From Polytrichum commune (Eukaryota; Streptophyta; Polytrichopsida; Polytrichales; Polytrichaceae): a DNA stretch of 64,000 bases. The stretch's first letter is position 1, and each line of letters starts with the position of its first letter. Made by a program: the position numbers and the translations under genes. The notes below the pieces were generated by a model, which saw only the letters and a list, made by a program, of their open reading frames with translations, was not told the DNA's origin and did no database searches. Where the stretch lies: the NCBI GenBank assembly GCA_950295325.1, contig OX485807.1:27127666-27191665 (forward strand), given 5' to 3'. Of the stretch, positions 3,001 to 52,159 are shown piece after piece.

Positions 3001-6000
3001 TGGGAATATCTTCTTTAGTTTCCCTTCTTCGATGAAATATTCTTGGCTTTGATGGGTTATTCTCTTGTGTTGATTTTTGGAGATACGGGGTCCTTTAAGG
3101 TATCCGTATGTGAGGTATTCCACCAATAACCTCCTCCAATCCTTGTTGTCCTGTGATTGTATGGCGATGGATCCACAAATTATATTATGGAGCGGGCGTT
3201 GAAATCGCGTGCGACAGGATGGGCAATCATACATAATATACATTTGTATGTCGCTTAGTCCCATCGTGGGCCACCAACGGTTTCCTTGCAAACATCGTAG
3301 CCAAGTCTGTTGATCAGTCAGATGTCTCTGTCGGTATACGTGCATTTTTCCAATCCAATGTTTAATTTGGTAATTGGCAATGCATATCTTTGTCATACCG
3401 TTTTTCTCGAGTTTTCGGAGCTTCCCCTTTTCCAAGGTGAAAATCTCACTATCTCGCATGAGTTCCCTCTGTCCTCTTTGGGTTTCTGCATCCATTTTGA
3501 ATCTCCCATGAGCCATGTATTCGACAAGGGGTGTTCTCCAATCGTTGAAGGTTTCTTTGTAAGGGATTATATCCATCTGTTCATCAGCGGTTGAAGAACT
3601 TCCTGCTGTGGGTAACTCTTCTCCCTGTCCTTTACATTCGGTGCATAGCGTGATGAATAGTGCAATATCTTCCGCTAACGTCGGCCACCAATAAGGGCCT
3701 TGTAGCGCCAGTTGGCCGGTGGCTGTTACTGAGAAGTGTCGATTTTCCTTTATATGGAGGGTCTTAATGTAACTCCTCACATATCTCCCAGGTATACATT
3801 TCTTTATGATGCCATTGTGAAACATGCGATGTAACTCCCCTTCCTTGAGTATGAAGAATCGACTGCGATATTCGATCAATCTTCTTTCCTCGAAGGGTAG
3901 GGAACTCACCCATGATCTACCGTACGTTTGACATGTTATATATTGGACATATGGAGTCGTCCAATCTGATTCCGCTTTTCCCGTCATATCCTCTTGTGCT
4001 TCTAAAGGTTGGACAGGAAGTGGGTCATCGTCGTCCTCAGAGTCATGTGGGGTGATGTCCCCAGTTACGTCACCTTTGTCTGACATCTTACATACTGAGC
4101 ATTCATCGCAATACTCCAGTACGTCCCTCCTCCGTGTAGGCCACCAATAAGGTGCGCATAATGTATAGTGCCATGTAGTAGACAGATTGTAGTGCACTCC
4201 GTCTTGTTCATGAGCCTCACTTATAAGCTCCTCGATGATGTCCCCGGCTACACATTCATGTATTTTGCCGGAGATACTAATTCGCATGAGCTTACCTTCG
4301 TCCAACATGAACGGCTCACTCAACTGCCTAATCCTTGTCTGTTCTTCTGGGGTAGCTAGAACGGACAACAATTTCCCGTGTGTAAGGTACTCGATAAAAG
4401 GTGCTCGCCAATCATCAAAAGGTTGCACATGTACCATGAATAGACTTGCATCTGGGAATTGGTCTTCGATCCCTGAGGGATTTTCTCCACTTTCTATCCG
4501 TGATAGGTGGTCAGCCATTACATGGCTTCTCCCAGGTTTGTACACTACTTCAAAGTCATATTCTTGAAGTAATAACATCCATCTAGCAATTCGGCCAGAT
4601 ACCACCGGTCGGTTGACTAGATATAGTAAAGCTTGGTGGTCCACGTAGAAAACCACGTGGTTGGCCAGAAGATAATGCCTAAATTTGCCGACTGAGTAGA
4701 TCATTGCCAAGGCTTCGCGCTCGGTGGTGCTGTAATTCTTCTCGGCATTGTTGAGAAGTCTGCTGGCATAGTATATTGGAGAATCCCTATCTCCGTGTAT
4801 GTTTTGGGCCAAGACTGCACCAATGGCTATGTTAGAAGCATCACAATGTACATGAAACTCCATAGACCAATTGGGGGTTATGAGTATAGGCGTAGTTGTG
4901 AGTCTTTTCTTCACCTCTTCAAACGCCTCCTGGCAAGCTTTAGTCCAGATGTATTTTTCTCCTTTCTTTAGGAGTAAGTAAAGTGGTCTGGTGACTTGTG
5001 CATACATCCAGATGAACTTCCGGTGATAAGTAGCTTGTCCTAAGAAGCTCCGGATTCCCCGCACTGTGGTTGGTGGAGGCAATTTTCCGATTACGTCCAC
5101 CTTTTTGGGGTCCACTAACAAGCCTTCTTGGCAAACCACATGTCCAAGGAGCCTTCCCGAATTTACACAGAAATAGCACTTCTCCGGGTTTAGGCTTACT
5201 CCGTTTTCACGGCACTTGATAAGGCATTTCTCCAAATGCTCAATATGGTCCGCCTTGGTTCCATAGACGGTAAAATCATCTAGAAATACTTTCATAAACT
5301 TATCAAGGTAATCTGCAAATATTTTCATCATTCCCCTTTGGAATGTGGCTGGGGCACACATCAAACCAAAGGGCATTACTCGGTATGCGAAAGCTCCATA
5401 CTCGGTAATAAAAGACGTCTTCAATTGATCCTCCAGTGCGATCATGATTTGGTTGTAACCACTGTACCCGTCCATCAACGTGTACATTTCATGTCCTGCA
5501 ACAGCTTCCAAAATTGATTCGGTAAAAGGTAGAGGGAAAGGGTCTACCTTGGTGACTGCGTTGAGTTTGCGGTAGTCAACGCACACTCGTAGTTTCCCGT
5601 TCTTCTTTGGCACAATCACGATGGGTGACAACCATTCTGTTTTATCAACGGGGTATATGAACCCTGCTTCCAAGTATTTATCAATTTCCTCCTTCACTTT
5701 GGCGGCATAATTGGGGTTCATCCTGTACCGCATCTGCCGCACCGGCTTGGCTTCCGGTTGTAACTCGATCTTGTGTTCACAAACATACGGGGGTATCCCT
5801 TTCATGTCTTTATATGTGAATGCGAACACATCTTTAAAACGTAGCAAAAGGTCTTTCACTTTAGCTTCGTATTCTCCCAAATCCTTAGCAATTTTCACCA
5901 ACTTAGGATCTTCAAGGGTTCCTAGGTTCAAATTTTTGACTAGGTCTTCATCTTCCACGGTCCATCCCGCTATCTTCTTCCCTTTTACTGCCTCCGTGGC

Positions 6001-9000
6001 AGGAGTACCGTCTACCGTTATATCTCCTTCCTTAACTTTGTAGAATTGGTCCGGATATACGGGTTTCTCTTCCATGGCCTCTTGCTCCTTCTTAGTAGCT
6101 TTTCGAGGTCGAGGTTTCTCTTGTTCGTCGGGGTTTGCTCTAGGCCTTCCCGGTTTCTTAGGGTTATCAACCCCCACTGTATTACAGCTTGACTCCTTCA
6201 ATTTCCTTAGGCTTTTCAAATCAAAGTCTCCCATAGGTAGCAACTCGGGAAATGCTTCATAGACTATTGCTTCCTCTTCATCAGATAGTCCCATCTCCCA
6301 GTCGTAGTCTTCCCAATTTAAGGGTCTCCTTCCCGGTGGTAGTGCCGGGGTTCTTTGAGTACTCAATTCCACCTTGCTTCCTCCTTGAGTCAAGGTTAAC
6401 TTGTTGAGGGGCCAATCATGTTGTGCTTGAGCCTCCTTCAACCATGGTCTTCCTAGTAATAGAGAGTAACTATCTTCGGTGCTCACCATGTCTATGACGG
6501 TGAGTGTTGTCCGGATCACGATGCCGCCGACATCAAGGCGTACATCCCTGATGATTCCTTTTGGCATGACCTTCCTTTGGTCAGCCATTTTGATGGTAAA
6601 TGGAGCGGGCTCTATTTTGTTAAGCCCTAATTTCTTCCTTAAGGTATTGGTGATGATGTTCACTCCTGAGCCACCATCGATCAAAACATTTGGAATCCTT
6701 CTGTTCTTAACAATTACTGATATCATGGGCATCTCTTCGTCGAATGCCTTTGCTGTTACGTGATAGGTAGAGGTCGGTTTCTCCGTTTCCTCCTCTTGGC
6801 TGGTAAGGGCCGCCATTACCCGTTTCTTGCAATAGGGGGCTATCTCTAGTAGCTGCCCTATTGAGATGTTTGCTTTTGTGTGATTCATCACATTTTCTAA
6901 AATTTTATCCACCCTTGCTCGGGTAGCTGTTGGGACGCCTCCCTTCTCGGGGCTCCGTTTCACGGGCTTCTCTGCCTCTTCTTTTTCTGGGTACCAAGGT
7001 GCGAACTCTTCTGGCGTGGGTAGAGCTTCGCCCTCTTCCTCCTGTATTTCATGGATAGTCTTACTCACCTCCCGGTGGACTTCCCTATCCGCTTTCCATT
7101 CTTCACTGTTGGCTCCTATCGGCCTTTCTTCAATCACTTTGTTGCGTTCATTATCCTCGAATGCGTCATCCCTTTCATCTTCGGAGTTCTCCTCCCTCTT
7201 TTGGTGGTCTTCTTGCTTTTCTGAGCTGCCACTGCTTGATTCATCATTGTCATCGCTGTCATCACTTTCACTATCTTCTTTGCCTTTCTCGGCTGCGGCC
7301 CGTTGGCCTCTGGTCATCACACAAACTGCAGGGGACACCACGTTGGCTCCTACTGCCGGTTTTGGGTTTCTAAATCCACTCAACTCCTGTTGGTGTTTAA
7401 TAAAGTGCGGACAATCCGGCTTCCGGTGCCCCTTCTGATGACAATAGAAACACTCGTCGGGGTTGCCATCTCGCTGTGGTCCGCCAGTGAACCCAGTTCT
7501 CGGCGCTGCCTTGGTGTTGTTATTATCCATCAGGCTCCTGGTATACTCATACCTGTCATGGTTAATAGGTCCTCTGGGGCCTCCTCGGTAGGGGTATCCA
7601 TCTTCCCTCCGGTAATCTTGGGTTTTGTAAGGGATATAACCTTCCCTTCTGAACTCATCTCGGTAGTTGTTGTTGGGCCTATAGTATGGCCGTTCCTCTC
7701 TGCGATATTCATTTCCCCGGTAGGGGCCTCCCGCCTCCCGCCGGTAATCGCCCTCCCTAAAGGGGGATCTTTCATCTCTCCGGAATTCTATCCTTGGTTC
7801 AAACCGAACCCTTCTTTCATTCATTTCTCGCCTAGGAGTTATCGCTCCTGGCCTATGATTAGCTTGGGGTTGTACTTGGTTTACCCCATATCTCCTATCT
7901 CGGGGCCTCCGAGATTCATGTCTTTCGTAAACACATTCACTTGTGTTGTGTGTTAGGCTGTTGCAGTTCGTGCACTGCTTCATTTGACACTCTTGAACAT
8001 AGTGTCCTTCATTTCGGCATCTCCGACATATGATGCCTGTTCGAAATTTTCTGCTCCCTAGAGCTAATTCTTCAATCTCTTCCCTGAGAGTCTTGATGTC
8101 ATCTTTGGTTGAATCGTTCCTTTTGCTCTTTGTCTTTTTCTTTTTCTTTTTCCGCTCTTCTTCAGAGTCATCGCTTGAGTCATCGCTGTTACTCTCATCA
8201 TGGAATCTTCCTTTTCTCATTTGTCCTAGCTCCAATTTCCGAGCTGAGGCTTTGGCTTCATCCAAGTCATCGGTTGGCATTAAATCAATATGCTTGGCAT
8301 ATTCTTTCTTTAGGCCGTTAAGGAACCATGCCTTTTTGAATTGATTGCTGGGTTGGGGATTAATTTTTGACGATTCCACCATAACCCGTTCATAGAATTC
8401 TTCAACCGTTTCGTCCTTCTTTTGTTTGAGGGAGCCTAAGCTTTCAATGACTTCCCCCTCCGATTTCTTTGATCTGAATCTCATAAGAAAAGCAGTTCCT
8501 AAAGTGGGCCAATCTGGAAAATGATTTGGGCCAAATTGGGAGTACCATTCTAATGCTCGCTTTTTCAAGGTGACTGGAAATAATTGCAACTTGATTGCAT
8601 CTGTGTCTTCCTGGTTGGCAAGACACACATTGTTAAATTCTTGCATGTAGGTGTCGGGATCTGTCTTACCTTTGTAGGTCGGTAAGGGAACCTTTGTTCT
8701 CCGTTGTTGTGCAGCCATGTTGGCTGAAGTGGTTGGGTTGTTTCCAACACCAGGTGGATTGTTGTTATTTGGAGGTGGTGGTGGTGGTGGGCTGACTCTG
8801 GTGTTAATTCCAAGGTTTTGGAATTGTTTAAGTCTTTCTTCAAATTTCCTCCTTAATTCGTCGAATTCTTCTTGTGTGATGGGCTTTTTGATTTCTTGGT
8901 CCGTTTGGTTCTGAGTGCTCCCTCCTGAGAAGCCGGAGTCCTCGTAGCTGAATTGTTCTTCAAAATTCCTTCTTAGTTTCTCCCAACTCCTTTGGTCGAA

Positions 9001-9489
9001 AATATCTTCCTCGGTCGTGTTTCCTTGATGGGTTTTGTCTTGCGCTTTATCTACTGGGGTATGCGTACCCGTGGTTTTACCTGTACCTTTTGTTCTCAAT
9101 ACGTAGGTTCCAGGAGGGGTTCCTATTATCAGATCATCCTCGTTTTCCTCGCTTTCTCCTTGATTCAAGTTTTCTTCATCCAAGTCTTCATGTTCTTTGC
9201 TTGTCTCACCATTACCTCCTCCTTCACTTTGACTTCTATGGTGGCTGGGCTTAGGGGTGTGGGAACCTATTGCCGGTGGTTCAGAAGCGTATCGGCTCTC
9301 TTCACTTCCTGTAGTTCTTTGTCTTGTACGCCTAGCGTACCTCTCTTCTCTTTCTCTCTTGAGTTGTTCAGTCCGCCTTATGCGGTCTTCTCTGGAATGC
9401 ATGCGCTCCACATGCTTCTTCTCTGCCTCCTGTTCTCTAGGAGTTGGTGATGTACTTCTCGTACTAGATGTATCCTCATGATCAACCAT
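1..9489 (-). CDS. gag-pol: Gag-Pol polyprotein of the truncated copy, residues 1-3163
   Basis: Same frame as 16975-26709, open from the start codon at 9489 to the window edge. Only the last 81 residues are missing, and this is a window cut, not a lesion. All domains listed for the complete copy are present, including the eight zinc-binding modules at about 1220-4420. Confidence 0.93.
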   Translation of the reverse strand, partial: MVDHEDTSSTRSTSPTPREQEAEKKHVERMHSREDRIRRTEQLKREREERYARRTRQRTTGSEESRYASEPPAIGSHTPKPSHHRSQSEGGGNGETSKEHEDLDEENLNQGESEENEDDLIIGTPPGTYVLRTKGTGKTTGTHTPVDKAQDKTHQGNTTEEDIFDQRSWEKLRRNFEEQFSYEDSGFSGGSTQNQTDQEIKKPITQEEFDELRRKFEERLKQFQNLGINTRVSPPPPPPPNNNNPPGVGNNPTTSANMAAQQRRTKVPLPTYKGKTDPDTYMQEFNNVCLANQEDTDAIKLQLFPVTLKKRALEWYSQFGPNHFPDWPTLGTAFLMRFRSKKSEGEVIESLGSLKQKKDETVEEFYERVMVESSKINPQPSNQFKKAWFLNGLKKEYAKHIDLMPTDDLDEAKASARKLELGQMRKGRFHDESNSDDSSDDSEEERKKKKKKTKSKRNDSTKDDIKTLREEIEELALGSRKFRTGIICRRCRNEGHYVQECQMKQCTNCNSLTHNTSECVYERHESRRPRDRRYGVNQVQPQANHRPGAITPRREMNERRVRFEPRIEFRRDERSPFREGDYRREAGGPYRGNEYRREERPYYRPNNNYRDEFRREGYIPYKTQDYRREDGYPYRGGPRGPINHDRYEYTRSLMDNNNTKAAPRTGFTGGPQRDGNPDECFYCHQKGHRKPDCPHFIKHQQELSGFRNPKPAVGANVVSPAVCVMTRGQRAAAEKGKEDSESDDSDDNDESSSGSSEKQEDHQKREENSEDERDDAFEDNERNKVIEERPIGANSEEWKADREVHREVSKTIHEIQEEEGEALPTPEEFAPWYPEKEEAEKPVKRSPEKGGVPTATRARVDKILENVMNHTKANISIGQLLEIAPYCKKRVMAALTSQEEETEKPTSTYHVTAKAFDEEMPMISVIVKNRRIPNVLIDGGSGVNIITNTLRKKLGLNKIEPAPFTIKMADQRKVMPKGIIRDVRLDVGGIVIRTTLTVIDMVSTEDSYSLLLGRPWLKEAQAQHDWPLNKLTLTQGGSKVELSTQRTPALPPGRRPLNWEDYDWEMGLSDEEEAIVYEAFPELLPMGDFDLKSLRKLKESSCNTVGVDNPKKPGRPRANPDEQEKPRPRKATKKEQEAMEEKPVYPDQFYKVKEGDITVDGTPATEAVKGKKIAGWTVEDEDLVKNLNLGTLEDPKLVKIAKDLGEYEAKVKDLLLRFKDVFAFTYKDMKGIPPYVCEHKIELQPEAKPVRQMRYRMNPNYAAKVKEEIDKYLEAGFIYPVDKTEWLSPIVIVPKKNGKLRVCVDYRKLNAVTKVDPFPLPFTESILEAVAGHEMYTLMDGYSGYNQIMIALEDQLKTSFITEYGAFAYRVMPFGLMCAPATFQRGMMKIFADYLDKFMKVFLDDFTVYGTKADHIEHLEKCLIKCRENGVSLNPEKCYFCVNSGRLLGHVVCQEGLLVDPKKVDVIGKLPPPTTVRGIRSFLGQATYHRKFIWMYAQVTRPLYLLLKKGEKYIWTKACQEAFEEVKKRLTTTPILITPNWSMEFHVHCDASNIAIGAVLAQNIHGDRDSPIYYASRLLNNAEKNYSTTEREALAMIYSVGKFRHYLLANHVVFYVDHQALLYLVNRPVVSGRIARWMLLLQEYDFEVVYKPGRSHVMADHLSRIESGENPSGIEDQFPDASLFMVHVQPFDDWRAPFIEYLTHGKLLSVLATPEEQTRIRQLSEPFMLDEGKLMRISISGKIHECVAGDIIEELISEAHEQDGVHYNLSTTWHYTLCAPYWWPTRRRDVLEYCDECSVCKMSDKGDVTGDITPHDSEDDDDPLPVQPLEAQEDMTGKAESDWTTPYVQYITCQTYGRSWVSSLPFEERRLIEYRSRFFILKEGELHRMFHNGIIKKCIPGRYVRSYIKTLHIKENRHFSVTATGQLALQGPYWWPTLAEDIALFITLCTECKGQGEELPTAGSSSTADEQMDIIPYKETFNDWRTPLVEYMAHGRFKMDAETQRGQRELMRDSEIFTLEKGKLRKLEKNGMTKICIANYQIKHWIGKMHVYRQRHLTDQQTWLRCLQGNRWWPTMGLSDIQMYIMYDCPSCRTRFQRPLHNIICGSIAIQSQDNKDWRRLLVEYLTYGYLKGPRISKNQHKRITHQSQEYFIEEGKLKKIFPNGDIKICIAGREIDEHLKDLHITDSGEHLSIELMWHLVTFGPYWWPTCGADIKNLCDHKCLTCSNQPEYSKGKQNQSHLGKKEFQGTPTTDWRRPYMEYLTCEKIFTQDLTPGDKTAVEHSHKYFVFTNGTLQRIRKGGKDNQRCIPEAHVPMYLARIHEETEPHLAAMETWKAVATGEYWWPTWGVDVCNYLRDCKTCRGMGTQPVETPDLVAQKPTHAPDWRLLVIQQLANIEKLNHIDTQEELGLTSFDTETYFVTEDGLKYRLPNGIVKMCITKEDAIDWVKRIYEYQVPPLPKEEIFIEIHKGPYWWPNIPRDVEYTIDEYKRHQDTLLPGFKIENYGTILRNQKARDWREPIIQHLKNPMELSNFAFHEELGVSREELPQYFLQEGKLKRRLTNGDIKLCISKDKGIKWLETIHHQGSPHLSMDEITSQVNTGPYWWPTIPPDIDYLCRNCKICWPEQTTGRMVECTTITAKGENEQDWRTPYIDYLKHGRLTTEASTTQRQQIAIRSRPFMLNQNGTLIKEGPDGIRRTCVAGPVTTAIVAEAHEGIAGGHFSARITLHKILTALYWWPTMKRDVHLYCTQCDICQRVGPKISTNLQPLHPTMPTEVFQKWGLDFIGPVNPPAKGTKNRYIITATDYTTKWVEARALKDNTAKSTAKFLFEEIITKFGCPLEFVSDQGSHFINDTIKVLTQEFMILHRKSTTYYPQANGQAESTNKVIKVALTKMVNANRTDWDTKLHAALWAYRTAYKVTTKHTPFSLVFGTEALLPMAYLHPDVYQKRSQEIHPILEKRMEQLRVMDLTRHEAEENMRHMQTLRKERHDHPKPKTRCHQCKQGATKPPQNEAKESALMEKESEQGTTLKPRFYPGQRILWHLRHKIPGPGKFKIRWAGPYVIKQLYDNGSVDVTTLQGEKLGRVNMNKLKPYQEPETTQAYALQILACHLLEAEIKAKKSQTQNKDISKPLLNPSNQGTTSHTKPLPYPDQATLDEEDLEI
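1220..4420 (-). repeat. Same eight-module zinc-binding array in the truncated copy
   Basis: Identical to 18440-21640. YWWP signatures lie at about 4136, 3681, 3266, 2861, 2451, 2061, 1668 and 1271. Confidence 0.92.
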
Positions 9490-10351: not shown

Positions 10352-11511
10352 AAATGTCGAGGTCACCTTCAAACCCTCAGCAAACTTAGACGGTGTAACC
10401 CGCTGCTGACCGGTTTACATGGAAGTTACTCCCACCAAAATTAGATCCTTCATTTGATTTCCATTTCTGGTGAAGGTGTTTGCACTCATATAATCTTAAT
10501 TTTGTGATACAAAATCTTAATGCTCTTTTTGAATCCTCAAGGACAAATTGACCTAAGTTTTCAAGTTTATGTCCCCCGAAATCTAATGTCAAGGTTAGGT
10601 GATCCTAAACCTTCAAATAGATTTAACAACACAATACTTTTCGTAATCAAGAAAAGTGTTTCAAAATCCTTTTATAAATCCCTAAGGATAAAGTGTCCAA
10701 GTTGTCAAGTTTATGTTCCCCGAAATCTTAATGTCAGGGTTAAGTGTTTTAGGGAGAACATCATTCATACATACAATATCTTTCATGGTTTGAATGATCG
10801 TAAAATATCCTTAATCCATTAAGAATGTATGTTTATGATAAGTTCACGATTCCTTTGAAGGTCCAAACATACCCCCTCACTAAAGTATATTCATAAGATT
10901 TCATTCTTCTACTCAATTCCTAGAGTTTACATAATGTTCTCGTGAAAAGCTTTCATTAAATGTTTGTTCCGTATTCGAGTATTAATCTTCAATCATATCA
11001 CATGATTTTTGAGTTCTTTAAATCTATGAAGTAGAGTTTGAAATCCTAATCTTGCTCCGAGTTGAGAGGTTGATGAGGTTCCATTTGCCGGCCGCATTCC
11101 GTGTACACAAGTTGAAATGATTTCATGTTTTGATAATCTCCATGTCGCGTCCACCACGTTCTCTAGATCATGATTTCGACTTCGCCACCTAGCTCAATCT
11201 ACCTCAAATCACACTCGAGTAGCTCTAGGTATCCAATTTGGCTTTGCTCCATTTTTTAATTCTTTCGAGTACTGCCAATTTTGGCTTTACGCTTTCAAGT
11301 TTAATCAACTCTCAAATCAATGTCTCCAAAAGTTCCTCCGGTTTATTTGATTTTCCAAAATCTCAATTTTCTACGGATCCTTGATCCTCTTCGTGTTGAA
11401 GAAACTCTAAGATTTCCTATCCTCTAAAGTCTTGAATCATTTCGAGGATTCTTCAATCCTTTACGCCTTCAAGTTCGGGGATAATATCTCAATCCCTTTG
11501 AATTTGCAATT

Positions 11512-11704
11512 GCGAGGATTACAATCCTTTAGTCTTCAAATGCGAGGATAGGTTATATCCTTTAGTCTTCAAATGCGAGGATAGATTATATCCTTTAGTC
11601 TTCAACGCGAGGATAGGTTATATCCTTTAGTCTTCAAACGCGAGGATAGGTTATATCCTTTAGTCTTCGAATGCGAGGATAGGTTATATCCTTTAGTCTT
11701 CAAG
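11512..11704 (-). repeat. Same LTR minisatellite in the shared LTR
   Basis: Six units identical in number and order to those in the other LTR, so the array has not changed length since the copies diverged. Confidence 0.85.
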
Positions 11705-11770
11705 CGCGTCGTCCTCCACCTCGGATGGCTCGTGTTTAGAATGAGGTGAATTAGGTGCCATATGTGGCCC

Positions 11771-11781
11771 CTTTATATAGG
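11771..11781 (-). promoter_or_regulatory. TATA box of the shared LTR
   Basis: Identical CCTATATAAAG motif. In this LTR it would drive the truncated copy. Confidence 0.65.
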
Positions 11782-12618
11782 CTTCGAATTTAGGGTAATC
11801 TAAGATGTGGCGGTTAGGTCTTTAAATGTCTGTATTTACTAATTTTAGCCCTGAATGTTCATACAATCTAAATTCAGCCCTGTCCGATCTATTAATAGAC
11901 TGTCACGTGCTTAAATTAGCTCTACTAATGAGGTACATATGGGCATGTTCTAACCGCCTAGATGTGCCATTGGTAGTTGTCATCCCCTTTCCCCCATTCA
12001 TCCCAAAATAGGCTCATTGTTCATTGCCGGTAATGGAGTTGGTTAAGCCCATCCAAAATTTGTCATCCTTGTGTCCTTCCATCCATTCAACTAAGAGTTC
12101 ATCCCTTCTTCCATCCTTACTATGTCTACTTACTATCCTATTGAGCAACTTCTAACTCATTAGTGTAAGAGGTCACTAACGGGTTTGCTCAAGAGTGGTT
12201 CCTAACCTACTAATCCAAGGGCTCTCACTAATGGGTAGCCCGTAACCCTAATTACCTATGGTCTAGGTAGGTCGGTGGGCCCCATAAGAGGGAAAGGTGG
12301 CTGGCCTTTTCACACACAGTCTTCTCGGGCTCGCAGCCTCCCCCTTTGCTGGGCCTTCACGCCCCTGTCGCCACGTGGCTCGTCACTCTCTCTCCCGCTC
12401 CCAGTTTGCTCTCTGTCTCCTCCATTCGCTTCCGGTCCCTCCGGCTTCCTCCGAACAGCTCCCTCACTGCTCCGAGTTCGGCAGGCCCTCAGTCCCTTTG
12501 GCTCTCACTCTCCCCTGTTACACCCGTTGTGTTGTGCTTCCGAATTCCCTTGTCTTCGCTGGTCCGTCTCGCCCTGCCTGTAAGCTTGCTTGTTGTATTT
12601 GGATTCGGAGGCCCTACA

Positions 12619-16974: not shown

Positions 16975-19900
16975 TTATTCGAGGGGATGCACCTCCCTAC
17001 CCTCTTTCACATGGGTAAGGTCTTCATAGGCATGGTCCGCATCCCTTTGTACTTCTCCATCCAAGGTTGGCTTAGGTGGCGTAAATACATTTGTTCCTTT
17101 TGGTTTGACCAAATCGTTGGTTGACTGAGTGCCTTTGGTCCCATGGTTGTGTGGTCGTGTTACACCTTGCTCCCATAACTTTGTGGGTTGCGTGTAATAA
17201 CCTTCTAGCATGATACGATGTATCTCCAAGTCCTCTTCATCCAGAGTAGCCTGATCCGGGTATGGTAGAGGTTTGGTATGTGAGGTCGTTCCTTGGTTAG
17301 AGGGGTTCAATAGAGGCTTTGAAATATCCTTGTTTTGAGTTTGGGATTTCTTTGCCTTAATCTCTGCTTCCAACAGATGGCATGCTAGAATTTGTAAAGC
17401 ATAAGCTTGAGTAGTCTCCGGTTCTTGATATGGTTTGAGTTTGTTCATGTTAACTCGCCCCAACTTTTCTCCTTGTAAAGTGGTGACGTCCACCGATCCG
17501 TTGTCATAGAGTTGTTTAATCACGTATGGTCCTGCCCATCGTATTTTGAATTTGCCGGGCCCGGGTATTTTATGGCGTAAATGCCACAAGATTCGTTGGC
17601 CGGGGTAAAATCGTGGTTTGAGTGTAGTCCCTTGCTCTGATTCTTTCTCCATGAGTGCGGATTCCTTAGCCTCATTTTGTGGTGGCTTGGTTGCTCCTTG
17701 TTTACATTGGTGACAACGTGTCTTTGGTTTTGGATGGTCATGTCTTTCTTTGCGTAAGGTTTGCATGTGTCTCATGTTTTCTTCCGCTTCATGTCGGGTC
17801 AAATCCATAACTCTGAGTTGTTCCATTCTCTTTTCGAGAATGGGATGAATTTCTTGGCTCCGTTTTTGGTACACATCAGGGTGAAGGTAAGCCATAGGCA
17901 ATAAGGCTTCCGTACCAAAAACTAATGAAAATGGAGTGTGCTTTGTGGTAACCTTATAGGCTGTCCTATAGGCCCAAAGCGCTGCATGTAACTTGGTGTC
18001 CCAATCTGTTCGATTGGCATTCACCATCTTGGTCAAGGCAACTTTTATTACCTTGTTAGTACTTTCCGCTTGCCCGTTAGCCTGTGGGTAGTAAGTCGTT
18101 GATTTCCGATGTAAGATCATAAACTCTTGGGTGAGTACTTTGATAGTGTCATTAATAAAATGACTCCCTTGGTCGCTCACGAACTCCAAAGGACATCCAA
18201 ATTTAGTGATTATTTCTTCAAAGAGAAATTTGGCCGTGGACTTCGCCGTGTTATCCTTCAAGGCTCTGGCCTCCACCCATTTGGTGGTGTAGTCGGTAGC
18301 TGTAATGATATATCGATTTTTGGTGCCTTTGGCTGGAGGATTGACCGGTCCAATGAAATCCAAACCCCATTTTTGAAACACCTCAGTAGGCATTGTAGGG
18401 TGTAAGGGTTGAAGGTTTGTGGATATTTTAGGGCCAACCCTTTGGCATATATCACATTGAGTGCAATATAAATGAACATCTCGCTTCATGGTGGGCCACC
18501 AATACAAAGCGGTCAAAATCTTGTGGAGGGTGATTCTAGCTGAAAAGTGTCCTCCGGCTATTCCCTCATGAGCTTCCGCAACGATAGCTGTAGTGACTGG
18601 TCCGGCCACGCATGTTCTCCGTATGCCGTCTGGACCTTCTTTAATGAGTGTCCCGTTTTGATTTAACATGAACGGTCGGCTACGTATTGCTATTTGTTGT
18701 CGTTGCGTAGTTGACGCCTCTGTGGTCAAGCGTCCATGTTTTAAGTAGTCAATGTAGGGGGTTCTCCAGTCTTGTTCGTTTTCCCCTTTTGCTGTGATCG
18801 TGGTGCACTCTACCATTCGCCCTGTGGTTTGCTCGGGCCAACAAATCTTGCAGTTTCTACATAAATAGTCAATATCAGGAGGGATTGTGGGCCACCAATA
18901 TGGTCCCGTATTGACTTGTGAGGTTATCTCGTCCATTGAGAGATGTGGGCTCCCTTGATGGTGGATGGTCTCCAACCATTTAATCCCTTTGTCTTTGGAG
19001 ATGCAAAGTTTAATGTCTCCATTTGTGAGTCTCCGTTTTAGTTTCCCCTCTTGTAGGAAGTACTGGGGTAACTCTTCACGTGACACACCCAATTCCTCGT
19101 GGAAGGCAAAATTGCTAAGTTCCATGGGGTTTTTGAGGTGCTGGATGATTGGTTCTCTCCAGTCACGTGCCTTCTGGTTCCTTAAGATAGTTCCATAGTT
19201 TTCAATTTTAAAACCTGGTAGTAAGGTATCCTGGTGCCTTTTGTATTCGTCGATTGTATATTCCACGTCCCGGGGAATATTTGGCCACCAATAGGGGCCT
19301 TTATGTATTTCTATGAATATTTCTTCTTTCGGAAGAGGAGGTACTTGATACTCATAGATTCTTTTTACCCAATCAATGGCATCCTCCTTAGTGATGCACA
19401 TTTTTACAATTCCATTTGGTAATCGGTATTTCAGACCATCTTCAGTTACGAAGTAAGTCTCCGTGTCGAAACTAGTTAACCCCAATTCCTCTTGGGTGTC
19501 AATATGGTTTAGTTTCTCGATGTTAGCTAGTTGTTGTATAACCAAAAGCCTCCAATCTGGCGCATGTGTTGGTTTTTGCGCAACCAAGTCTGGAGTTTCC
19601 ACTGGTTGTGTTCCCATTCCTCTGCAAGTTTTGCAATCTCTTAGATAGTTGCACACATCAACTCCCCATGTTGGCCACCAATATTCTCCTGTGGCCACGG
19701 CCTTCCATGTTTCCATGGCGGCCAAATGAGGTTCAGTTTCTTCGTGAATCCTGGCCAAGTACATGGGTACGTGGGCCTCCGGAATGCAGCGTTGGTTATC
19801 CTTCCCACCTTTACGAATTCTTTGTAGAGTACCATTGGTAAACACAAAATATTTATGGCTGTGTTCCACAGCCGTTTTGTCTCCTGGTGTTAAGTCTTGG

Positions 19901-22900
19901 GTAAAGATTTTCTCGCATGTTAAGTATTCCATATAGGGACGTCTCCAATCCGTGGTGGGCGTTCCTTGGAATTCTTTCTTGCCTAGGTGTGATTGGTTTT
20001 GCTTGCCTTTTGAGTACTCCGGTTGGTTGCTGCAGGTCAAGCATTTATGATCGCATAAGTTTTTAATGTCAGCTCCGCATGTGGGCCACCAGTAGGGTCC
20101 AAATGTGACTAGGTGCCACATCAACTCTATACTAAGGTGTTCTCCCGAGTCGGTGATATGTAAGTCTTTTAAGTGCTCGTCGATTTCTCGCCCGGCAATA
20201 CATATCTTAATGTCTCCATTTGGGAATATCTTCTTTAGTTTCCCTTCTTCGATGAAATATTCTTGGCTTTGATGGGTTATTCTCTTGTGTTGATTTTTGG
20301 AGATACGGGGTCCTTTAAGGTATCCGTATGTGAGGTATTCCACCAATAACCTCCTCCAATCCTTGTTGTCCTGTGATTGTATGGCGATGGATCCACAAAT
20401 TATATTATGGAGCGGGCGTTGAAATCGCGTGCGACAGGATGGGCAATCATACATAATATACATTTGTATGTCGCTTAGTCCCATCGTGGGCCACCAACGG
20501 TTTCCTTGCAAACATCGTAGCCAAGTCTGTTGATCAGTCAGATGTCTCTGTCGGTATACGTGCATTTTTCCAATCCAATGTTTAATTTGGTAATTGGCAA
20601 TGCATATCTTTGTCATACCGTTTTTCTCGAGTTTTCGGAGCTTCCCCTTTTCCAAGGTGAAAATCTCACTATCTCGCATGAGTTCCCTCTGTCCTCTTTG
20701 GGTTTCTGCATCCATTTTGAATCTCCCATGAGCCATGTATTCGACAAGGGGTGTTCTCCAATCGTTGAAGGTTTCTTTGTAAGGGATTATATCCATCTGT
20801 TCATCAGCGGTTGAAGAACTTCCTGCTGTGGGTAACTCTTCTCCCTGTCCTTTACATTCGGTGCATAGCGTGATGAATAGTGCAATATCTTCCGCTAACG
20901 TCGGCCACCAATAAGGGCCTTGTAGCGCCAGTTGGCCGGTGGCTGTTACTGAGAAGTGTCGATTTTCCTTTATATGGAGGGTCTTAATGTAACTCCTCAC
21001 ATATCTCCCAGGTATACATTTCTTTATGATGCCATTGTGAAACATGCGATGTAACTCCCCTTCCTTGAGTATGAAGAATCGACTGCGATATTCGATCAAT
21101 CTTCTTTCCTCGAAGGGTAGGGAACTCACCCATGATCTACCGTACGTTTGACATGTTATATATTGGACATATGGAGTCGTCCAATCTGATTCCGCTTTTC
21201 CCGTCATATCCTCTTGTGCTTCTAAAGGTTGGACAGGAAGTGGGTCATCGTCGTCCTCAGAGTCATGTGGGGTGATGTCCCCAGTTACGTCACCTTTGTC
21301 TGACATCTTACATACTGAGCATTCATCGCAATACTCCAGTACGTCCCTCCTCCGTGTAGGCCACCAATAAGGTGCGCATAATGTATAGTGCCATGTAGTA
21401 GACAGATTGTAGTGCACTCCGTCTTGTTCATGAGCCTCACTTATAAGCTCCTCGATGATGTCCCCGGCTACACATTCATGTATTTTGCCGGAGATACTAA
21501 TTCGCATGAGCTTACCTTCGTCCAACATGAACGGCTCACTCAACTGCCTAATCCTTGTCTGTTCTTCTGGGGTAGCTAGAACGGACAACAATTTCCCGTG
21601 TGTAAGGTACTCGATAAAAGGTGCTCGCCAATCATCAAAAGGTTGCACATGTACCATGAATAGACTTGCATCTGGGAATTGGTCTTCGATCCCTGAGGGA
21701 TTTTCTCCACTTTCTATCCGTGATAGGTGGTCAGCCATTACATGGCTTCTCCCAGGTTTGTACACTACTTCAAAGTCATATTCTTGAAGTAATAACATCC
21801 ATCTAGCAATTCGGCCAGATACCACCGGTCGGTTGACTAGATATAGTAAAGCTTGGTGGTCCACGTAGAAAACCACGTGGTTGGCCAGAAGATAATGCCT
21901 AAATTTGCCGACTGAGTAGATCATTGCCAAGGCTTCGCGCTCGGTGGTGCTGTAATTCTTCTCGGCATTGTTGAGAAGTCTGCTGGCATAGTATATTGGA
22001 GAATCCCTATCTCCGTGTATGTTTTGGGCCAAGACTGCACCAATGGCTATGTTAGAAGCATCACAATGTACATGAAACTCCATAGACCAATTGGGGGTTA
22101 TGAGTATAGGCGTAGTTGTGAGTCTTTTCTTCACCTCTTCAAACGCCTCCTGGCAAGCTTTAGTCCAGATGTATTTTTCTCCTTTCTTTAGGAGTAAGTA
22201 AAGTGGTCTGGTGACTTGTGCATACATCCAGATGAACTTCCGGTGATAAGTAGCTTGTCCTAAGAAGCTCCGGATTCCCCGCACTGTGGTTGGTGGAGGC
22301 AATTTTCCGATTACGTCCACCTTTTTGGGGTCCACTAACAAGCCTTCTTGGCAAACCACATGTCCAAGGAGCCTTCCCGAATTTACACAGAAATAGCACT
22401 TCTCCGGGTTTAGGCTTACTCCGTTTTCACGGCACTTGATAAGGCATTTCTCCAAATGCTCAATATGGTCCGCCTTGGTTCCATAGACGGTAAAATCATC
22501 TAGAAATACTTTCATAAACTTATCAAGGTAATCTGCAAATATTTTCATCATTCCCCTTTGGAATGTGGCTGGGGCACACATCAAACCAAAGGGCATTACT
22601 CGGTATGCGAAAGCTCCATACTCGGTAATAAAAGACGTCTTCAATTGATCCTCCAGTGCGATCATGATTTGGTTGTAACCACTGTACCCGTCCATCAACG
22701 TGTACATTTCATGTCCTGCAACAGCTTCCAAAATTGATTCGGTAAAAGGTAGAGGGAAAGGGTCTACCTTGGTGACTGCGTTGAGTTTGCGGTAGTCAAC
22801 GCACACTCGTAGTTTCCCGTTCTTCTTTGGCACAATCACGATGGGTGACAACCATTCTGTTTTATCAACGGGGTATATGAACCCTGCTTCCAAGTATTTA

Positions 22901-25900
22901 TCAATTTCCTCCTTCACTTTGGCGGCATAATTGGGGTTCATCCTGTACCGCATCTGCCGCACCGGCTTGGCTTCCGGTTGTAACTCGATCTTGTGTTCAC
23001 AAACATACGGGGGTATCCCTTTCATGTCTTTATATGTGAATGCGAACACATCTTTAAAACGTAGCAAAAGGTCTTTCACTTTAGCTTCGTATTCTCCCAA
23101 ATCCTTAGCAATTTTCACCAACTTAGGATCTTCAAGGGTTCCTAGGTTCAAATTTTTGACTAGGTCTTCATCTTCCACGGTCCATCCCGCTATCTTCTTC
23201 CCTTTTACTGCCTCCGTGGCAGGAGTACCGTCTACCGTTATATCTCCTTCCTTAACTTTGTAGAATTGGTCCGGATATACGGGTTTCTCTTCCATGGCCT
23301 CTTGCTCCTTCTTAGTAGCTTTTCGAGGTCGAGGTTTCTCTTGTTCGTCGGGGTTTGCTCTAGGCCTTCCCGGTTTCTTAGGGTTATCAACCCCCACTGT
23401 ATTACAGCTTGACTCCTTCAATTTCCTTAGGCTTTTCAAATCAAAGTCTCCCATAGGTAGCAACTCGGGAAATGCTTCATAGACTATTGCTTCCTCTTCA
23501 TCAGATAGTCCCATCTCCCAGTCGTAGTCTTCCCAATTTAAGGGTCTCCTTCCCGGTGGTAGTGCCGGGGTTCTTTGAGTACTCAATTCCACCTTGCTTC
23601 CTCCTTGAGTCAAGGTTAACTTGTTGAGGGGCCAATCATGTTGTGCTTGAGCCTCCTTCAACCATGGTCTTCCTAGTAATAGAGAGTAACTATCTTCGGT
23701 GCTCACCATGTCTATGACGGTGAGTGTTGTCCGGATCACGATGCCGCCGACATCAAGGCGTACATCCCTGATGATTCCTTTTGGCATGACCTTCCTTTGG
23801 TCAGCCATTTTGATGGTAAATGGAGCGGGCTCTATTTTGTTAAGCCCTAATTTCTTCCTTAAGGTATTGGTGATGATGTTCACTCCTGAGCCACCATCGA
23901 TCAAAACATTTGGAATCCTTCTGTTCTTAACAATTACTGATATCATGGGCATCTCTTCGTCGAATGCCTTTGCTGTTACGTGATAGGTAGAGGTCGGTTT
24001 CTCCGTTTCCTCCTCTTGGCTGGTAAGGGCCGCCATTACCCGTTTCTTGCAATAGGGGGCTATCTCTAGTAGCTGCCCTATTGAGATGTTTGCTTTTGTG
24101 TGATTCATCACATTTTCTAAAATTTTATCCACCCTTGCTCGGGTAGCTGTTGGGACGCCTCCCTTCTCGGGGCTCCGTTTCACGGGCTTCTCTGCCTCTT
24201 CTTTTTCTGGGTACCAAGGTGCGAACTCTTCTGGCGTGGGTAGAGCTTCGCCCTCTTCCTCCTGTATTTCATGGATAGTCTTACTCACCTCCCGGTGGAC
24301 TTCCCTATCCGCTTTCCATTCTTCACTGTTGGCTCCTATCGGCCTTTCTTCAATCACTTTGTTGCGTTCATTATCCTCGAATGCGTCATCCCTTTCATCT
24401 TCGGAGTTCTCCTCCCTCTTTTGGTGGTCTTCTTGCTTTTCTGAGCTGCCACTGCTTGATTCATCATTGTCATCGCTGTCATCACTTTCACTATCTTCTT
24501 TGCCTTTCTCGGCTGCGGCCCGTTGGCCTCTGGTCATCACACAAACTGCAGGGGACACCACGTTGGCTCCTACTGCCGGTTTTGGGTTTCTAAATCCACT
24601 CAACTCCTGTTGGTGTTTAATAAAGTGCGGACAATCCGGCTTCCGGTGCCCCTTCTGATGACAATAGAAACACTCGTCGGGGTTGCCATCTCGCTGTGGT
24701 CCGCCAGTGAACCCAGTTCTCGGCGCTGCCTTGGTGTTGTTATTATCCATCAGGCTCCTGGTATACTCATACCTGTCATGGTTAATAGGTCCTCTGGGGC
24801 CTCCTCGGTAGGGGTATCCATCTTCCCTCCGGTAATCTTGGGTTTTGTAAGGGATATAACCTTCCCTTCTGAACTCATCTCGGTAGTTGTTGTTGGGCCT
24901 ATAGTATGGCCGTTCCTCTCTGCGATATTCATTTCCCCGGTAGGGGCCTCCCGCCTCCCGCCGGTAATCGCCCTCCCTAAAGGGGGATCTTTCATCTCTC
25001 CGGAATTCTATCCTTGGTTCAAACCGAACCCTTCTTTCATTCATTTCTCGCCTAGGAGTTATCGCTCCTGGCCTATGATTAGCTTGGGGTTGTACTTGGT
25101 TTACCCCATATCTCCTATCTCGGGGCCTCCGAGATTCATGTCTTTCGTAAACACATTCACTTGTGTTGTGTGTTAGGCTGTTGCAGTTCGTGCACTGCTT
25201 CATTTGACACTCTTGAACATAGTGTCCTTCATTTCGGCATCTCCGACATATGATGCCTGTTCGAAATTTTCTGCTCCCTAGAGCTAATTCTTCAATCTCT
25301 TCCCTGAGAGTCTTGATGTCATCTTTGGTTGAATCGTTCCTTTTGCTCTTTGTCTTTTTCTTTTTCTTTTTCCGCTCTTCTTCAGAGTCATCGCTTGAGT
25401 CATCGCTGTTACTCTCATCATGGAATCTTCCTTTTCTCATTTGTCCTAGCTCCAATTTCCGAGCTGAGGCTTTGGCTTCATCCAAGTCATCGGTTGGCAT
25501 TAAATCAATATGCTTGGCATATTCTTTCTTTAGGCCGTTAAGGAACCATGCCTTTTTGAATTGATTGCTGGGTTGGGGATTAATTTTTGACGATTCCACC
25601 ATAACCCGTTCATAGAATTCTTCAACCGTTTCGTCCTTCTTTTGTTTGAGGGAGCCTAAGCTTTCAATGACTTCCCCCTCCGATTTCTTTGATCTGAATC
25701 TCATAAGAAAAGCAGTTCCTAAAGTGGGCCAATCTGGAAAATGATTTGGGCCAAATTGGGAGTACCATTCTAATGCTCGCTTTTTCAAGGTGACTGGAAA
25801 TAATTGCAACTTGATTGCATCTGTGTCTTCCTGGTTGGCAAGACACACATTGTTAAATTCTTGCATGTAGGTGTCGGGATCTGTCTTACCTTTGTAGGTC

Positions 25901-27571: not shown

Positions 27572-28731
27572 AAATGTCGAGGTCACCTTCAAACCCTCAG
27601 CAAACTTAGACGGTGTAACCCGCTGCTGACCGGTTTACATGGAAGTTACTCCCACCAAAATTAGATCCTTCATTTGATTTCCATTTCTGGTGAAGGTGTT
27701 TGCACTCATATAATCTTAATTTTGTGATACAAAATCTTAATGCTCTTTTTGAATCCTCAAGGACAAATTGACCTAAGTTTTCAAGTTTATGTCCCCCGAA
27801 ATCTAATGTCAAGGTTAGGTGATCCTAAACCTTCAAATAGATTTAACAACACAATACTTTTCGTAATCAAGAAAAGTGTTTCAAAATCCTTTTATAAATC
27901 CCTAAGGATAAAGTGTCCAAGTTGTCAAGTTTATGTTCCCCGAAATCTTAATGTCAGGGTTAAGTGTTTTAGGGAGAACATCATTCATACATACAATATC
28001 TTTCATGGTTTGAATGATCGTAAAATATCCTTAATCCATTAAGAATGTATGTTTATGATAAGTTCACGATTCCTTTGAAGGTCCAAACATACCCCCTCAC
28101 TAAAGTATATTCATAAGATTTCATTCTTCTACTCAATTCCTAGAGTTTACATAATGTTCTCGTGAAAAGCTTTCATTAAATGTTTGTTCCGTATTCGAGT
28201 ATTAATCTTCAATCATATCACATGATTTTTGAGTTCTTTAAATCTATGAAGTAGAGTTTGAAATCCTAATCTTGCTCCGAGTTGAGAGGTTGATGAGGTT
28301 CCATTTGCCGGCCGCATTCCGTGTACACAAGTTGAAATGATTTCATGTTTTGATAATCTCCATGTCGCGTCCACCACGTTCTCTAGATCATGATTTCGAC
28401 TTCGCCACCTAGCTCAATCTACCTCAAATCACACTCGAGTAGCTCTAGGTATCCAATTTGGCTTTGCTCCATTTTTTAATTCTTTCGAGTACTGCCAATT
28501 TTGGCTTTACGCTTTCAAGTTTAATCAACTCTCAAATCAATGTCTCCAAAAGTTCCTCCGGTTTATTTGATTTTCCAAAATCTCAATTTTCTACGGATCC
28601 TTGATCCTCTTCGTGTTGAAGAAACTCTAAGATTTCCTATCCTCTAAAGTCTTGAATCATTTCGAGGATTCTTCAATCCTTTACGCCTTCAAGTTCGGGG
28701 ATAATATCTCAATCCCTTTGAATTTGCAATT

Positions 28732-28924
28732 GCGAGGATTACAATCCTTTAGTCTTCAAATGCGAGGATAGGTTATATCCTTTAGTCTTCAAATGCGAGG
28801 ATAGATTATATCCTTTAGTCTTCAACGCGAGGATAGGTTATATCCTTTAGTCTTCAAACGCGAGGATAGGTTATATCCTTTAGTCTTCGAATGCGAGGAT
28901 AGGTTATATCCTTTAGTCTTCAAG
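28732..28924 (-). repeat. LTR minisatellite, six ~33 bp units with a hairpin core
   Basis: Six head-to-tail units share the core GCGAGGATAGGTTATATCC followed by TTTAGTCTTCAA. Each unit contains the inverted pair GGATA...TATCC. More degenerate units precede the array. It lies downstream of the TATA box, so it is probably in the 5' untranslated leader. Confidence 0.85.
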
Positions 28925-28990
28925 CGCGTCGTCCTCCACCTCGGATGGCTCGTGTTTAGAATGAGGTGAATTAGGTGCCATATGTGGCCC

Positions 28991-29001
28991 CTTTATATAG
29001 G
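28991..29001 (-). promoter_or_regulatory. TATA box of the 5' LTR
   Basis: The coding strand reads CCTATATAAAG, a strong plant TATA match in mid-LTR. Transcription would start roughly 30 bases downstream (near 28965), placing the LTR minisatellite in the transcribed leader. Inferred from sequence only. Confidence 0.65.
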
Positions 29002-29838
29002 CTTCGAATTTAGGGTAATCTAAGATGTGGCGGTTAGGTCTTTAAATGTCTGTATTTACTAATTTTAGCCCTGAATGTTCATACAATCTAAATTCAGCCC
29101 TGTCCGATCTATTAATAGACTGTCACGTGCTTAAATTAGCTCTACTAATGAGGTACATATGGGCATGTTCTAACCGCCTAGATGTGCCATTGGTAGTTGT
29201 CATCCCCTTTCCCCCATTCATCCCAAAATAGGCTCATTGTTCATTGCCGGTAATGGAGTTGGTTAAGCCCATCCAAAATTTGTCATCCTTGTGTCCTTCC
29301 ATCCATTCAACTAAGAGTTCATCCCTTCTTCCATCCTTACTATGTCTACTTACTATCCTATTGAGCAACTTCTAACTCATTAGTGTAAGAGGTCACTAAC
29401 GGGTTTGCTCAAGAGTGGTTCCTAACCTACTAATCCAAGGGCTCTCACTAATGGGTAGCCCGTAACCCTAATTACCTATGGTCTAGGTAGGTCGGTGGGC
29501 CCCATAAGAGGGAAAGGTGGCTGGCCTTTTCACACACAGTCTTCTCGGGCTCGCAGCCTCCCCCTTTGCTGGGCCTTCACGCCCCTGTCGCCACGTGGCT
29601 CGTCACTCTCTCTCCCGCTCCCAGTTTGCTCTCTGTCTCCTCCATTCGCTTCCGGTCCCTCCGGCTTCCTCCGAACAGCTCCCTCACTGCTCCGAGTTCG
29701 GCAGGCCCTCAGTCCCTTTGGCTCTCACTCTCCCCTGTTACACCCGTTGTGTTGTGCTTCCGAATTCCCTTGTCTTCGCTGGTCCGTCTCGCCCTGCCTG
29801 TAAGCTTGCTTGTTGTATTTGGATTCGGAGGCCCTACA

Positions 29839-30183
29839 GTCCCCAAAACTTTTTGCATAAGATAATCAAGATCCATCTTTATTGAATATAAACCCTAAAA
29901 TTTGGTTTCTTGAGGCTCAAAAGTTGGGACTATGTCCCCATGTGGGGGCTTGCTAACATGAGTGGGACTTTAGACTTGGGACCCCACGTGAACCGGCCCT
30001 TACTGGGTACGCATGAGTGCTCTTGTTCCTAGTATCTTATTTTAGAACAAGAACCTTACAATCAAAATGTACGACGTTAAGAAAGACGTGCTTCCTTTAC
30101 CGTCTACCGTGTGTGTGTGTGTAGCTCAAAGCCCCATAGACCTCATGTTGATTGTGGGCAGAGTTTGGTTGACGTATTTGTGG
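29839..30183. other. Right flank of the retrotransposon, no gene seen
   Basis: Unique-looking sequence starting exactly at the end of the LTR. It holds a short GT microsatellite near 30108-30122 and no coding potential. The five bases after the LTR are GTCCC, half of a possible target duplication. Confidence 0.5.
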
Positions 30184-30958
30184 GACCACTGTCCGGGGAG
30201 AACTGGCGGTTAGTTACATATGAATTGGTTGAGTTTGAGAAATAACCGGTTGAAGTTGGAGACTTCCGGAGAATTACCGACCTTTTTAGAGGAATCTATG
30301 GAAGAATATACCTCCAATGAATGAAAGCAAAACCAGAAGATGTTAGTTGCAGATGAACCGGTTGAGTTTGAGAAATAACCACCGGCTGAAGTTGGAGACT
30401 TGAGGAGAATTAATGATCATTTTAGAGGAATCTATGGAAGAATATACCTCCAATGAATGAAAGCAAAACTGGAAGATGTTAGTTGCAAATGAACCGGTTG
30501 AGTTTGAGAAATAACCGGCTGAAGTTGGAGACTTGAGAAGAATTACCGACCGTTTTAGAGGAATCTATGGAAGAATATACCTCAAATGAATGAAAGCAAA
30601 ACCGGAAGATGTTAGTTGCAGATGAACCGGTTGAGTTTGAGAAATAACCACCGGCTGAAGTTGGAGACTTGAGAAGAATTACCGACCGTTTTAGAGGAAT
30701 CTATGGAAGAATATACCTCAAATGAATGAAAGCAAAACCGGAAGATGTTAGTTGCAGATGAACCGGTTGAGTTTGAGAAATAACCACCGGCTGAAGTTGG
30801 AGACTTGAGGAGGATTACTGATCGTTTCAGAGGAATCTATGGAAGAATATACCTCCTCCAATGAATGAAAGCCCAACCGGAAGATGATGTGAACATGTAA
30901 GCGGTTGGAAGTTGAGGAAGTATAATAAGTTATGTACCCAAGCACTTCCCGGGCACTG
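30184..30958 (+). repeat. Family A repeat with five internal tandem units
   Basis: It starts CTGTCCGGGGAGAAC and ends near CTTCCCGGGCACTG, an imperfect terminal inverted repeat. The core containing GTTGAGTTTGAGAAATAACC recurs at about 30229, 30361, 30498, 30629 and 30766, giving 131-137 bp units. Other family copies in the window have one unit, so this copy expanded internally. No coding capacity; it behaves like a MITE. Confidence 0.75.
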
Positions 30959-46754: not shown

Positions 46755-46975
46755 ATATATAACATTAAAAAATAAAAAATGAATAAATGTCAGGTCTGCA
46801 ATTCCTAACCCCTTTCAAGTAGCCCTCAACATATACCTCACCTACAAGTATAGACTACCTACCACTCACATACGTGGCAAAGCCAAGGCCGAAGGTGTCG
46901 GCCACGGGAATCGAACCTTGCACCTAGTGATACCCACACATGTGCCTTAACCACTAGGTCATCACATCACACATG
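46755..46975 (-). mobile_element. tRNA-derived SINE candidate inside the CACTA element
   Basis: On the minus strand an A-box-like TGACCTAGTGGTTAAGGC (46944-46961) is followed about 26 bases later by a B box GGTTCGATTCCCG (46905-46917). This resembles the two halves of a tRNA-Ser-type pol III promoter. The body runs toward a T/A-rich tail near 46755-46785. No cloverleaf can be completed, so it is not a tRNA gene. I could not find target duplications. Confidence 0.6.
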
Positions 46976-47039
46976 ATATAAACGGAGTGTTTTAAACCTT
47001 TCTAGAATAAGGCCATTAATTTCTCTTTACTACCTACTT

Positions 47040-47480
47040 GATGTATATATTTACAGTAAATATATACAGTATATAATTACAGTAAATATGTACTGTATAT
47101 AATTACAGTAAATATATACTGTATATATTTACTGTAAATGTATACTGTATATATTTACTGTAAATGTATACTGTATATATTTACTGTAAATGTATACTGT
47201 ATATATTTACTGTAAATGTATACATATTTATATATTATATATTATATACATACATGTTACATATATTATATGCATATATGTTACATATATTATATATATA
47301 CATATATTATATATATACATATATTATATATATACATATATACATACATATACATATATACATACATATATATACATACATACATACATACATATATATA
47401 CATATATACATACATATATACACATATACATATATTATATATATTATATGTTACATATATTATATATATTATTAACTATC
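47040..47480. repeat. AT-rich satellite inside the CACTA element
   Basis: Tandem ~26 bp units of the type TATACTGTATATATTTACTG (47040-47225) change into TA/CATA dinucleotide-like repeats (47225-47480). Tyr/Ile-rich open frames across it are by-products of the repeat. Confidence 0.9.
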
Positions 47481-52136: not shown

Positions 52137-52159
52137 GGCTCGGATGATGAGACTGATCG

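Follow-up and report, generated by a model that had tools for sequence, protein, structure and literature searches.

An array of eight integrase N-terminal modules in a Ty3/gypsy retrotransposon of Polytrichum commune

In the integrases described so far, those of retroviruses as well as that of yeast Ty3, each subunit has, to our knowledge, a single N-terminal zinc domain. In the Ty3/foamy type, the N-terminal domain (NTD) is preceded by an extension domain (NED). For prototype foamy virus (PFV), the accessible part of PMC3738965 reports the NED as essential for complexing viral DNA, and the function of the outer-subunit NTDs as unknown. For Ty3, the NED is described as stabilising contacts with the long terminal repeats (LTRs) and is reported to bind TFIIIC (PMC8632968, accessible part). 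The sequence considered here is a stretch of 64,000 nucleotides (the window) from the Polytrichum commune assembly (408 Mb in 64 contigs), at C5:27127666-27191665. It contains a Ty3/gypsy element whose polyprotein carries eight NED-NTD modules in tandem.

The array of integrase N-terminal modules

Eight in-frame units of ∼114 residues sit between RNase H and the integrase core, starting at residues 1693, 1842, 1983, 2117, 2254, 2385, 2516 and 2647 of the minus-strand open reading frame (ORF) at 16975-26709 (Table 1). Each unit is equivalent to the full N-terminal part of integrases of the Ty3/foamy type, with both the extension and the HHCC domain, and the alignment shows an initial D-W, an invariant central Cys, the H..H pair, WWP and CxxC. 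Pairwise identity among the modules of the window copy is 19-42%, and the spacing from DW to YWWP is 87-91 residues in every tabulated module of the window's class (class A). The ligands H-H-C-C are kept in seven of the eight modules (six of the seven internal ones), and are absent from module 6. Scanned singly, six of the eight match Pfam Integrase_H2C2 at E<0.001 and four exceed the curated cut-off of 25.5 (5/7 and 3/7 for the internal modules), while modules 3 and 6 give no match when scanned alone. In a set of 95 modules that includes ordinary terminal ones, 81 match at E<=0.01. At the DNA level, the pattern of WWPT followed by the next DW some 40-50 residues on has 284 matches in the genome, whereas the reversed pattern has 2.

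A profile built solely from internal modules finds foamy-virus integrase at E 2.7e-6. The predicted structure of module 3 is confident, has the NED-NTD fold, and aligns best with the foamy and Ty3 integrases; the other modules were modelled only within a weak model of the whole array, which suggests separate beads, joined by flexible linkers and preceding the integrase core. Judged from its sequence, the element is almost certainly a Ty3/gypsy retrotransposon with an in-frame amplified integrase NED-NTD, in which module 8 is the ordinary integrase domain, and modules 1-7 derive either from module 8 or from a copy that preceded it. A homologue search with the whole protein gave no match at E<=0.001 among 3710 candidates, a result that says little because the length window left out shorter proteins, and the array alone replaced it as query. 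Among viral contigs, 10 stretches fitted a pattern and none was confirmed.

An earlier note on this DNA had proposed tandem H2C2-type modules in one Ty3/gypsy polyprotein, seven of them keeping their ligands despite divergence, and both statements hold. Its repeated unit does occur eight times in frame, but is the NED plus NTD and not the finger alone, and the addition it put at about 900 residues is 954 for modules 1-7 plus linkers. The Pfam comparison that it suggested succeeds for six modules and fails for modules 3 and 6, of which module 3 is still modelled as a NED-NTD. A second copy, which it took to be truncated at 1220-4420, does hold the array (1213-4413), but is cut only by the window edge; in the genome this left unit is complete, with an open frame of 3264 residues.

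The two units are both on the minus strand, 17,220 bases each, 100% identical, and arranged in tandem as LTR-internal-LTR-internal-LTR, with three identical 2264-bp LTRs. The tandem extends from window -6870 (in locus L009) to 29843, with one 5-bp target-site duplication at both ends. The domain order gag-RT-RNase H-integrase in one pol is that of Ty3/gypsy elements, and the TG..CA ends, the 2264-bp LTRs and the GTCCC duplication, within the expected 4-6 bp, are those of an LTR retrotransposon. Because it is bordered by this duplication, the tandem is a real insertion, and because the LTRs are identical, a young one; the element inserted and was doubled later or at once. Unequal LTR exchange and assembly doubling are indistinguishable as origins of the tandem. 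In the Pfam scan of the polyprotein, gag, reverse transcriptase (RT), RNase H, H2C2 and rve exceed their cut-offs, whereas protease and zinc-knuckle matches fall below theirs. No chromodomain match was found in it up to E 10, though divergent chromodomains could escape Pfam, and no match to a second, archaeal-type RNase H up to the same E value; the latter domain defines Tat elements according to the accessible part of PMC6317226.

Table 1. Features of the tandem insertion (window coordinates)
Feature	Position	Strand	Remarks
Polyprotein ORF, gag-pol, intact, 3244 residues	16975..26709	minus	gag, protease-like region, RT, RNase H, eight NED-NTD modules, integrase core, C-terminal region
Retrotrans_gag, residues 302-394	25528..25806	minus	Pfam 34.2 bits (cut-off 24.1)
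Reverse transcriptase, residues 1293-1451	22357..22833	minus	Pfam 91.4 bits
RNase H, residues 1515-1644	21778..22167	minus	RT_RNaseH_2 115.2 bits, RT_RNaseH 113.6 bits
Whole array, eight modules, 1067 residues	18433..21633	minus	
Module 1 core	21292..21633	minus	HHCC; acidic (-7); H2C2 34.8 bits
Module 2 core	20836..21186	minus	HHCC; H2C2 28.3 bits
Module 3 core	20422..20763	minus	HHCC; without Pfam H2C2 match; markedly basic (+8); predicted fold NED-NTD
Module 4 core	20017..20361	minus	HHCC; H2C2 25.3 bits, slightly below cut-off
Module 5 core	19606..19950	minus	HHCC; H2C2 32.3 bits
Module 6 core	19216..19557	minus	ligands replaced by Y, P, Y, H; acidic (-8); no Pfam H2C2 match
Module 7 core	18823..19164	minus	HHCC; H2C2 21.0 bits
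Module 8 core	18427..18771	minus	ordinary integrase NED-NTD; HHCC; H2C2 56.7 bits; evolves most slowly (dN/dS 0.07)
Integrase catalytic core (rve), residues 2775-2875	18085..18387	minus	Pfam 39.2 bits (cut-off 32.6)
Extra ORF upstream of gag, 205 aa	26846..27463	minus	no Pfam match
Extra ORF downstream of pol, 926 aa	12652..15432	minus	no Pfam match exceeds cut-off
5' LTR, 2264 bp	27575..29838	minus	TG...CA in sense; same sequence as other two LTRs
LTR common to both units	10355..12618	minus	
Target-site duplication GTCCC, 5 bp	29839..29843	no strand	same five bases before left end of tandem, window -6870 to -6866, in L009
Polyprotein ORF of second unit, 100% identical	1..9489	minus	clipped by window edge; array 1213-4413

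Copies, relatives and growth of the array

With the array as query, the genome yielded 45 matches; 43 of 1196 first-look candidates were scored, and all counts are lower bounds. At least 22 copies, including both window units, extend over the query, beginning at residue 1 or 2 and ending at 1067, at 67-100% identity. All 22 query-spanning copies among the matches listed have the eight WWP anchors, so that the extra modules are present in other family members, as the earlier note had required. The two identical units in the window might by themselves bring to mind an assembly artefact or a recent slippage, but such an origin has virtually no chance of being correct. It is rejected because the modules are 19-42% identical, because at least 22 copies at separate places hold all eight, because the target-site duplication bounds the tandem, and because proteins from other public contigs carry several modules (P0002-P0008, P0010, P0011, P0013-P0017 and P0019, identified by eye).

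Seven of the 22 copies (L013, L015-L018, L026, L027) have eleven modules, the three extra ones sitting upstream of the eight and joined to them through a repeat of the linker peptide ASLFMVHVQPFE. This linker precedes module 1, and was duplicated together with the three extra modules. RNase H lies immediately upstream of the array in 14 of the 22, and L025 ends short upstream. In a tree of modules, the extra trios of L015 and L027 cluster by module (1' and 2' at 100/100, 3' weakly at 69/56), as expected from one duplication. L015, L016 and L017 lie on three chromosomes and their arrays share 98-99% identity, indicating that eleven-module elements have spread recently. If the linker holds the cleavage point between RNase H and integrase, these elements would have two such points, possibly freeing a three-module protein. 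Equal-scoring copies in opposite orientation lie close together at C4:58311024-58312367 and 58347417-58348760, and at C5:13221659-13224870 and 13233810-13237021, and are perhaps inverted duplications.

More distant relatives were sought with the RT domain, which gave 96 matches in the genome (94 candidates scored of 4010), falling in identity steps of 86-100%, 70-77% and 53-58%. The loci followed beyond RT were four middle-class ones together with the 70% neighbour of that class (L040, L041, L042, L044, L045), and one of the lower class (L043). Five modules are present in L040 and L042 (class B). L041, also of class B, retains three and a fragment of a fourth, after which a deletion follows, and L044 (RT 71%) stops within module 1; both are excluded from the counts. 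L045 is decayed, with three modules discernible by eye across three frames, the terminal one interrupted by ∼2 kb. L043 has one module, and alone of the one-module class was followed past RT, L050 and L052 being present in the RT tree only.

The RT tree unites all multi-module rows in a single clade (100/99), in which those with three and five modules group at 89/88, and it places L043 with P0009 and P0029, the latter source-named Riccia sorocarpa. In the module tree, terminal modules are placed next to single-module outgroups and all internal modules form one group (100/99), with A1 beside B1 (94/86), and A6 and A7 beside B4 (98/96); this tree has few columns for its rows, carries a long-branch warning, and does not settle the orthology of modules 2-5 between classes. 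Since both trees give a single multi-module or internal group, the array arose once and then grew. The module counts observed in this one genome are 1, 3 (one decayed locus), 5, 8 and 11, which may represent a strictly ordered series.

Selection, charge and possible function

The ratio of non-synonymous to synonymous substitution rates (dN/dS) was obtained from Nei-Gojobori counts over four independent closer copy pairs, chosen because saturation affects many of the distant pairs (dS above 1, or in some cases not computable). Some of the copies carry stops, which works against a purifying result, and the method treats sites as independent, while element copies recombine. The values for modules 1-8 are 0.19, 0.17, 0.14, 0.11, 0.21, 0.27, 0.16 and 0.07, those for the three extra modules of the eleven-module form 0.08, 0.08 and 0.21, and those for five class-B modules 0.10-0.31; the region of RT and RNase H gives 0.01-0.09 where computable. 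From these values, the extra modules are maintained, though less strictly than module 8. Every examined module is under purifying selection, ligands included. HHCC is complete in 125 out of the 136 distinct internal modules of class A, and module 6 provides 5 of the 11 exceptions. The claim of long-term selection instead of recent slippage, made earlier from divergence, is sustained by the same retention of HHCC in divergent modules and by dN/dS values of 0.07-0.31.

These data bear on the possibility that the array grew without benefit, template switching piling up in-frame duplications that are kept because a misfolded module harms the polyprotein. Such a process would fit the wide variation in module number (1, 3, 5, 8, 11), the origin of the eleven-module form in one duplication that carried the RNase H-integrase linker peptide, and the persistence of module 6 and of class-B module 3 after loss of ligands (three of four in the latter). 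It is nevertheless improbable, as each module is under purifying selection (dN/dS 0.07-0.27), and zinc ligands, spacing and per-module charge are preserved across long divergence; selection against misfolding alone would not obviously preserve a module-specific charge. Moreover, no query-spanning copy among the matches listed has lost an internal module, although one duplication shows that unequal exchange occurs.

Net charges in five class-A copies are -3 to -10 for module 1, +5 to +9 for module 3, -3 to -9 for module 6, -10 to 0 for module 7 (neutral in one) and +4 to +6 for module 8. The consistent differences indicate specialised modules, not eight equal DNA binders. A tentative mechanism is that the array would act as a multivalent docking arm on the integrase. 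The basic modules (3, 8 and, in most copies, 5) would hold the nucleic acid of the element, as the NED-NTD does in foamy and Ty3 intasomes, the acidic ones (1, 6, 7) would bind proteins, whether further integrase subunits or a factor of the host, and the outcome would be a pre-integration complex of higher avidity. Attachment of the array to integrase in the mature particle after protease cleavage, zinc binding, and the partners themselves are presumed. Taken as a whole, an amplified NED-NTD array serving as a docking arm is the best explanation, held with somewhat less than even confidence.

Several observations weigh against this explanation. The array of the window copy has an acidic net charge (-12) and is therefore not just a nucleic-acid binder, and the plain nucleic-acid-reading array put forward in the earlier note is not favoured, modules 1, 6 and 7 being acidic. 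Evolution is faster in modules 1-7 than in module 8 and the RT-RNase H region, the linkers are also constrained (pooled dN/dS 0.31), and the sublineage of the window has lost the ligands of module 6 (lost in the branch of L010, L013 and L015; present in L020, L023, L026, L027, L029 and L031), all of which indicates that not every bead is indispensable. Foldseek gave no match at E<=0.001 (best 2.9e-3), and the eight-module model is weak (mean pLDDT, the per-residue model confidence, 62.3; pTM, the predicted template-modelling score, 0.24; other four models 26.6-42.8). In PFV, the NED is described as having no role in activity in vitro (PMC3738965, accessible part).

Two other functions rank below the docking arm, in the order target reading, then particle scaffolding. 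The extra modules might recognise host chromatin or a transcription factor and steer integration, module number and sequence following the target. The report of Ty3 NED binding TFIIIC (accessible part of PMC8632968), the faster evolution of modules 1-7 relative to module 8 and RT-RNase H, and the lack of a Pfam chromodomain match in the polyprotein agree with this. Copies, however, lie on contigs of seven chromosomes with no evident common site (by inspection), and the 9 matches from a search with LTR ends, of which the tandem in the window supplies 3, do not suffice for a site logo; such steering is rather unlikely. A role before integration, inside the particle, where the array would pack integrase or genomic RNA, is a little more doubtful again. 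It would suit the bead-like layout of the weak model, the mixed charges, the very large polyprotein and, among the fold matches, an HIV-1 integrase filament in native cores (known by its title), but the array belongs to Pol, and it is units of this kind that contact DNA in intasomes. A broader idea, equally doubtful, is that the integrase evolves by counting: the NED-NTD would be an extendable repeat with partner-specialised members, comparable to the fingers of a zinc-finger array, forming a modular address or assembly code that grows by exchange between copies.

Neighbouring features and described elements

Elsewhere in the window, a second Ty3/gypsy element (45653-53227, plus strand) has a gag zinc knuckle just below the cut-off and an 812-residue ORF (47900-50338) matching C-5 cytosine DNA methylase (E 5.1e-11), followed by separate ORFs for RT, RNase H and an integrase of the ordinary one-module kind. 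By these matches it seems to be a retrotransposon carrying a DNA methyltransferase, a combination described for Klebsormidium in the accessible part of PMC5890265. Tandem arrays of 136 bp and 267 bp and a short telomere-like ACCCTAA run occur at 30209-30886, 59504-60185 and 32974-33000.

No earlier description of tandem integrase zinc modules was found in the literature searched (including the accessible parts of PMC6317226, PMC6338049 and PMC2774666), most subscription journals lying outside its coverage, which agrees with the statement of the earlier note that no described precedent is known. The clade keeps 3 to 11 integrase zinc domains and, with graded relatives in one genome, repeat growth inside an essential enzyme can be traced step by step. 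As the role of the NED-NTD beyond gripping DNA ends is unsettled, a multiplied and specialised family is a natural experiment on that question.

Ty3 integrase (7q5b; PMC8632968, accessible part) has one NED-NTD where eight are found here, and Ty3 has a chromodomain, whereas Pfam found none in this polyprotein. PFV integrase, the best match of the internal modules in both sequence and fold, likewise has one NED-NTD. Also close are the bryophyte-type single-module Ty3/gypsy elements (L043; P0029, P0009, P0022), which form the sister side of the RT tree and have one integrase module, the one-module class being 53-58% identical in RT. Plant OTA elements (Athila, Tat/Ogre, Retand) are also very large, with extra ORFs flanking the polyprotein and a 5-bp target duplication but, unlike in this family, no module array is mentioned in the accessible part of PMC6317226. 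In the nucleocapsid CCHC arrays, the number of zinc modules likewise varies between retroelement lineages (PMC2774666, accessible part); those are small knuckles in Gag, whereas here it is the N-terminal domain of the integrase that is multiplied.

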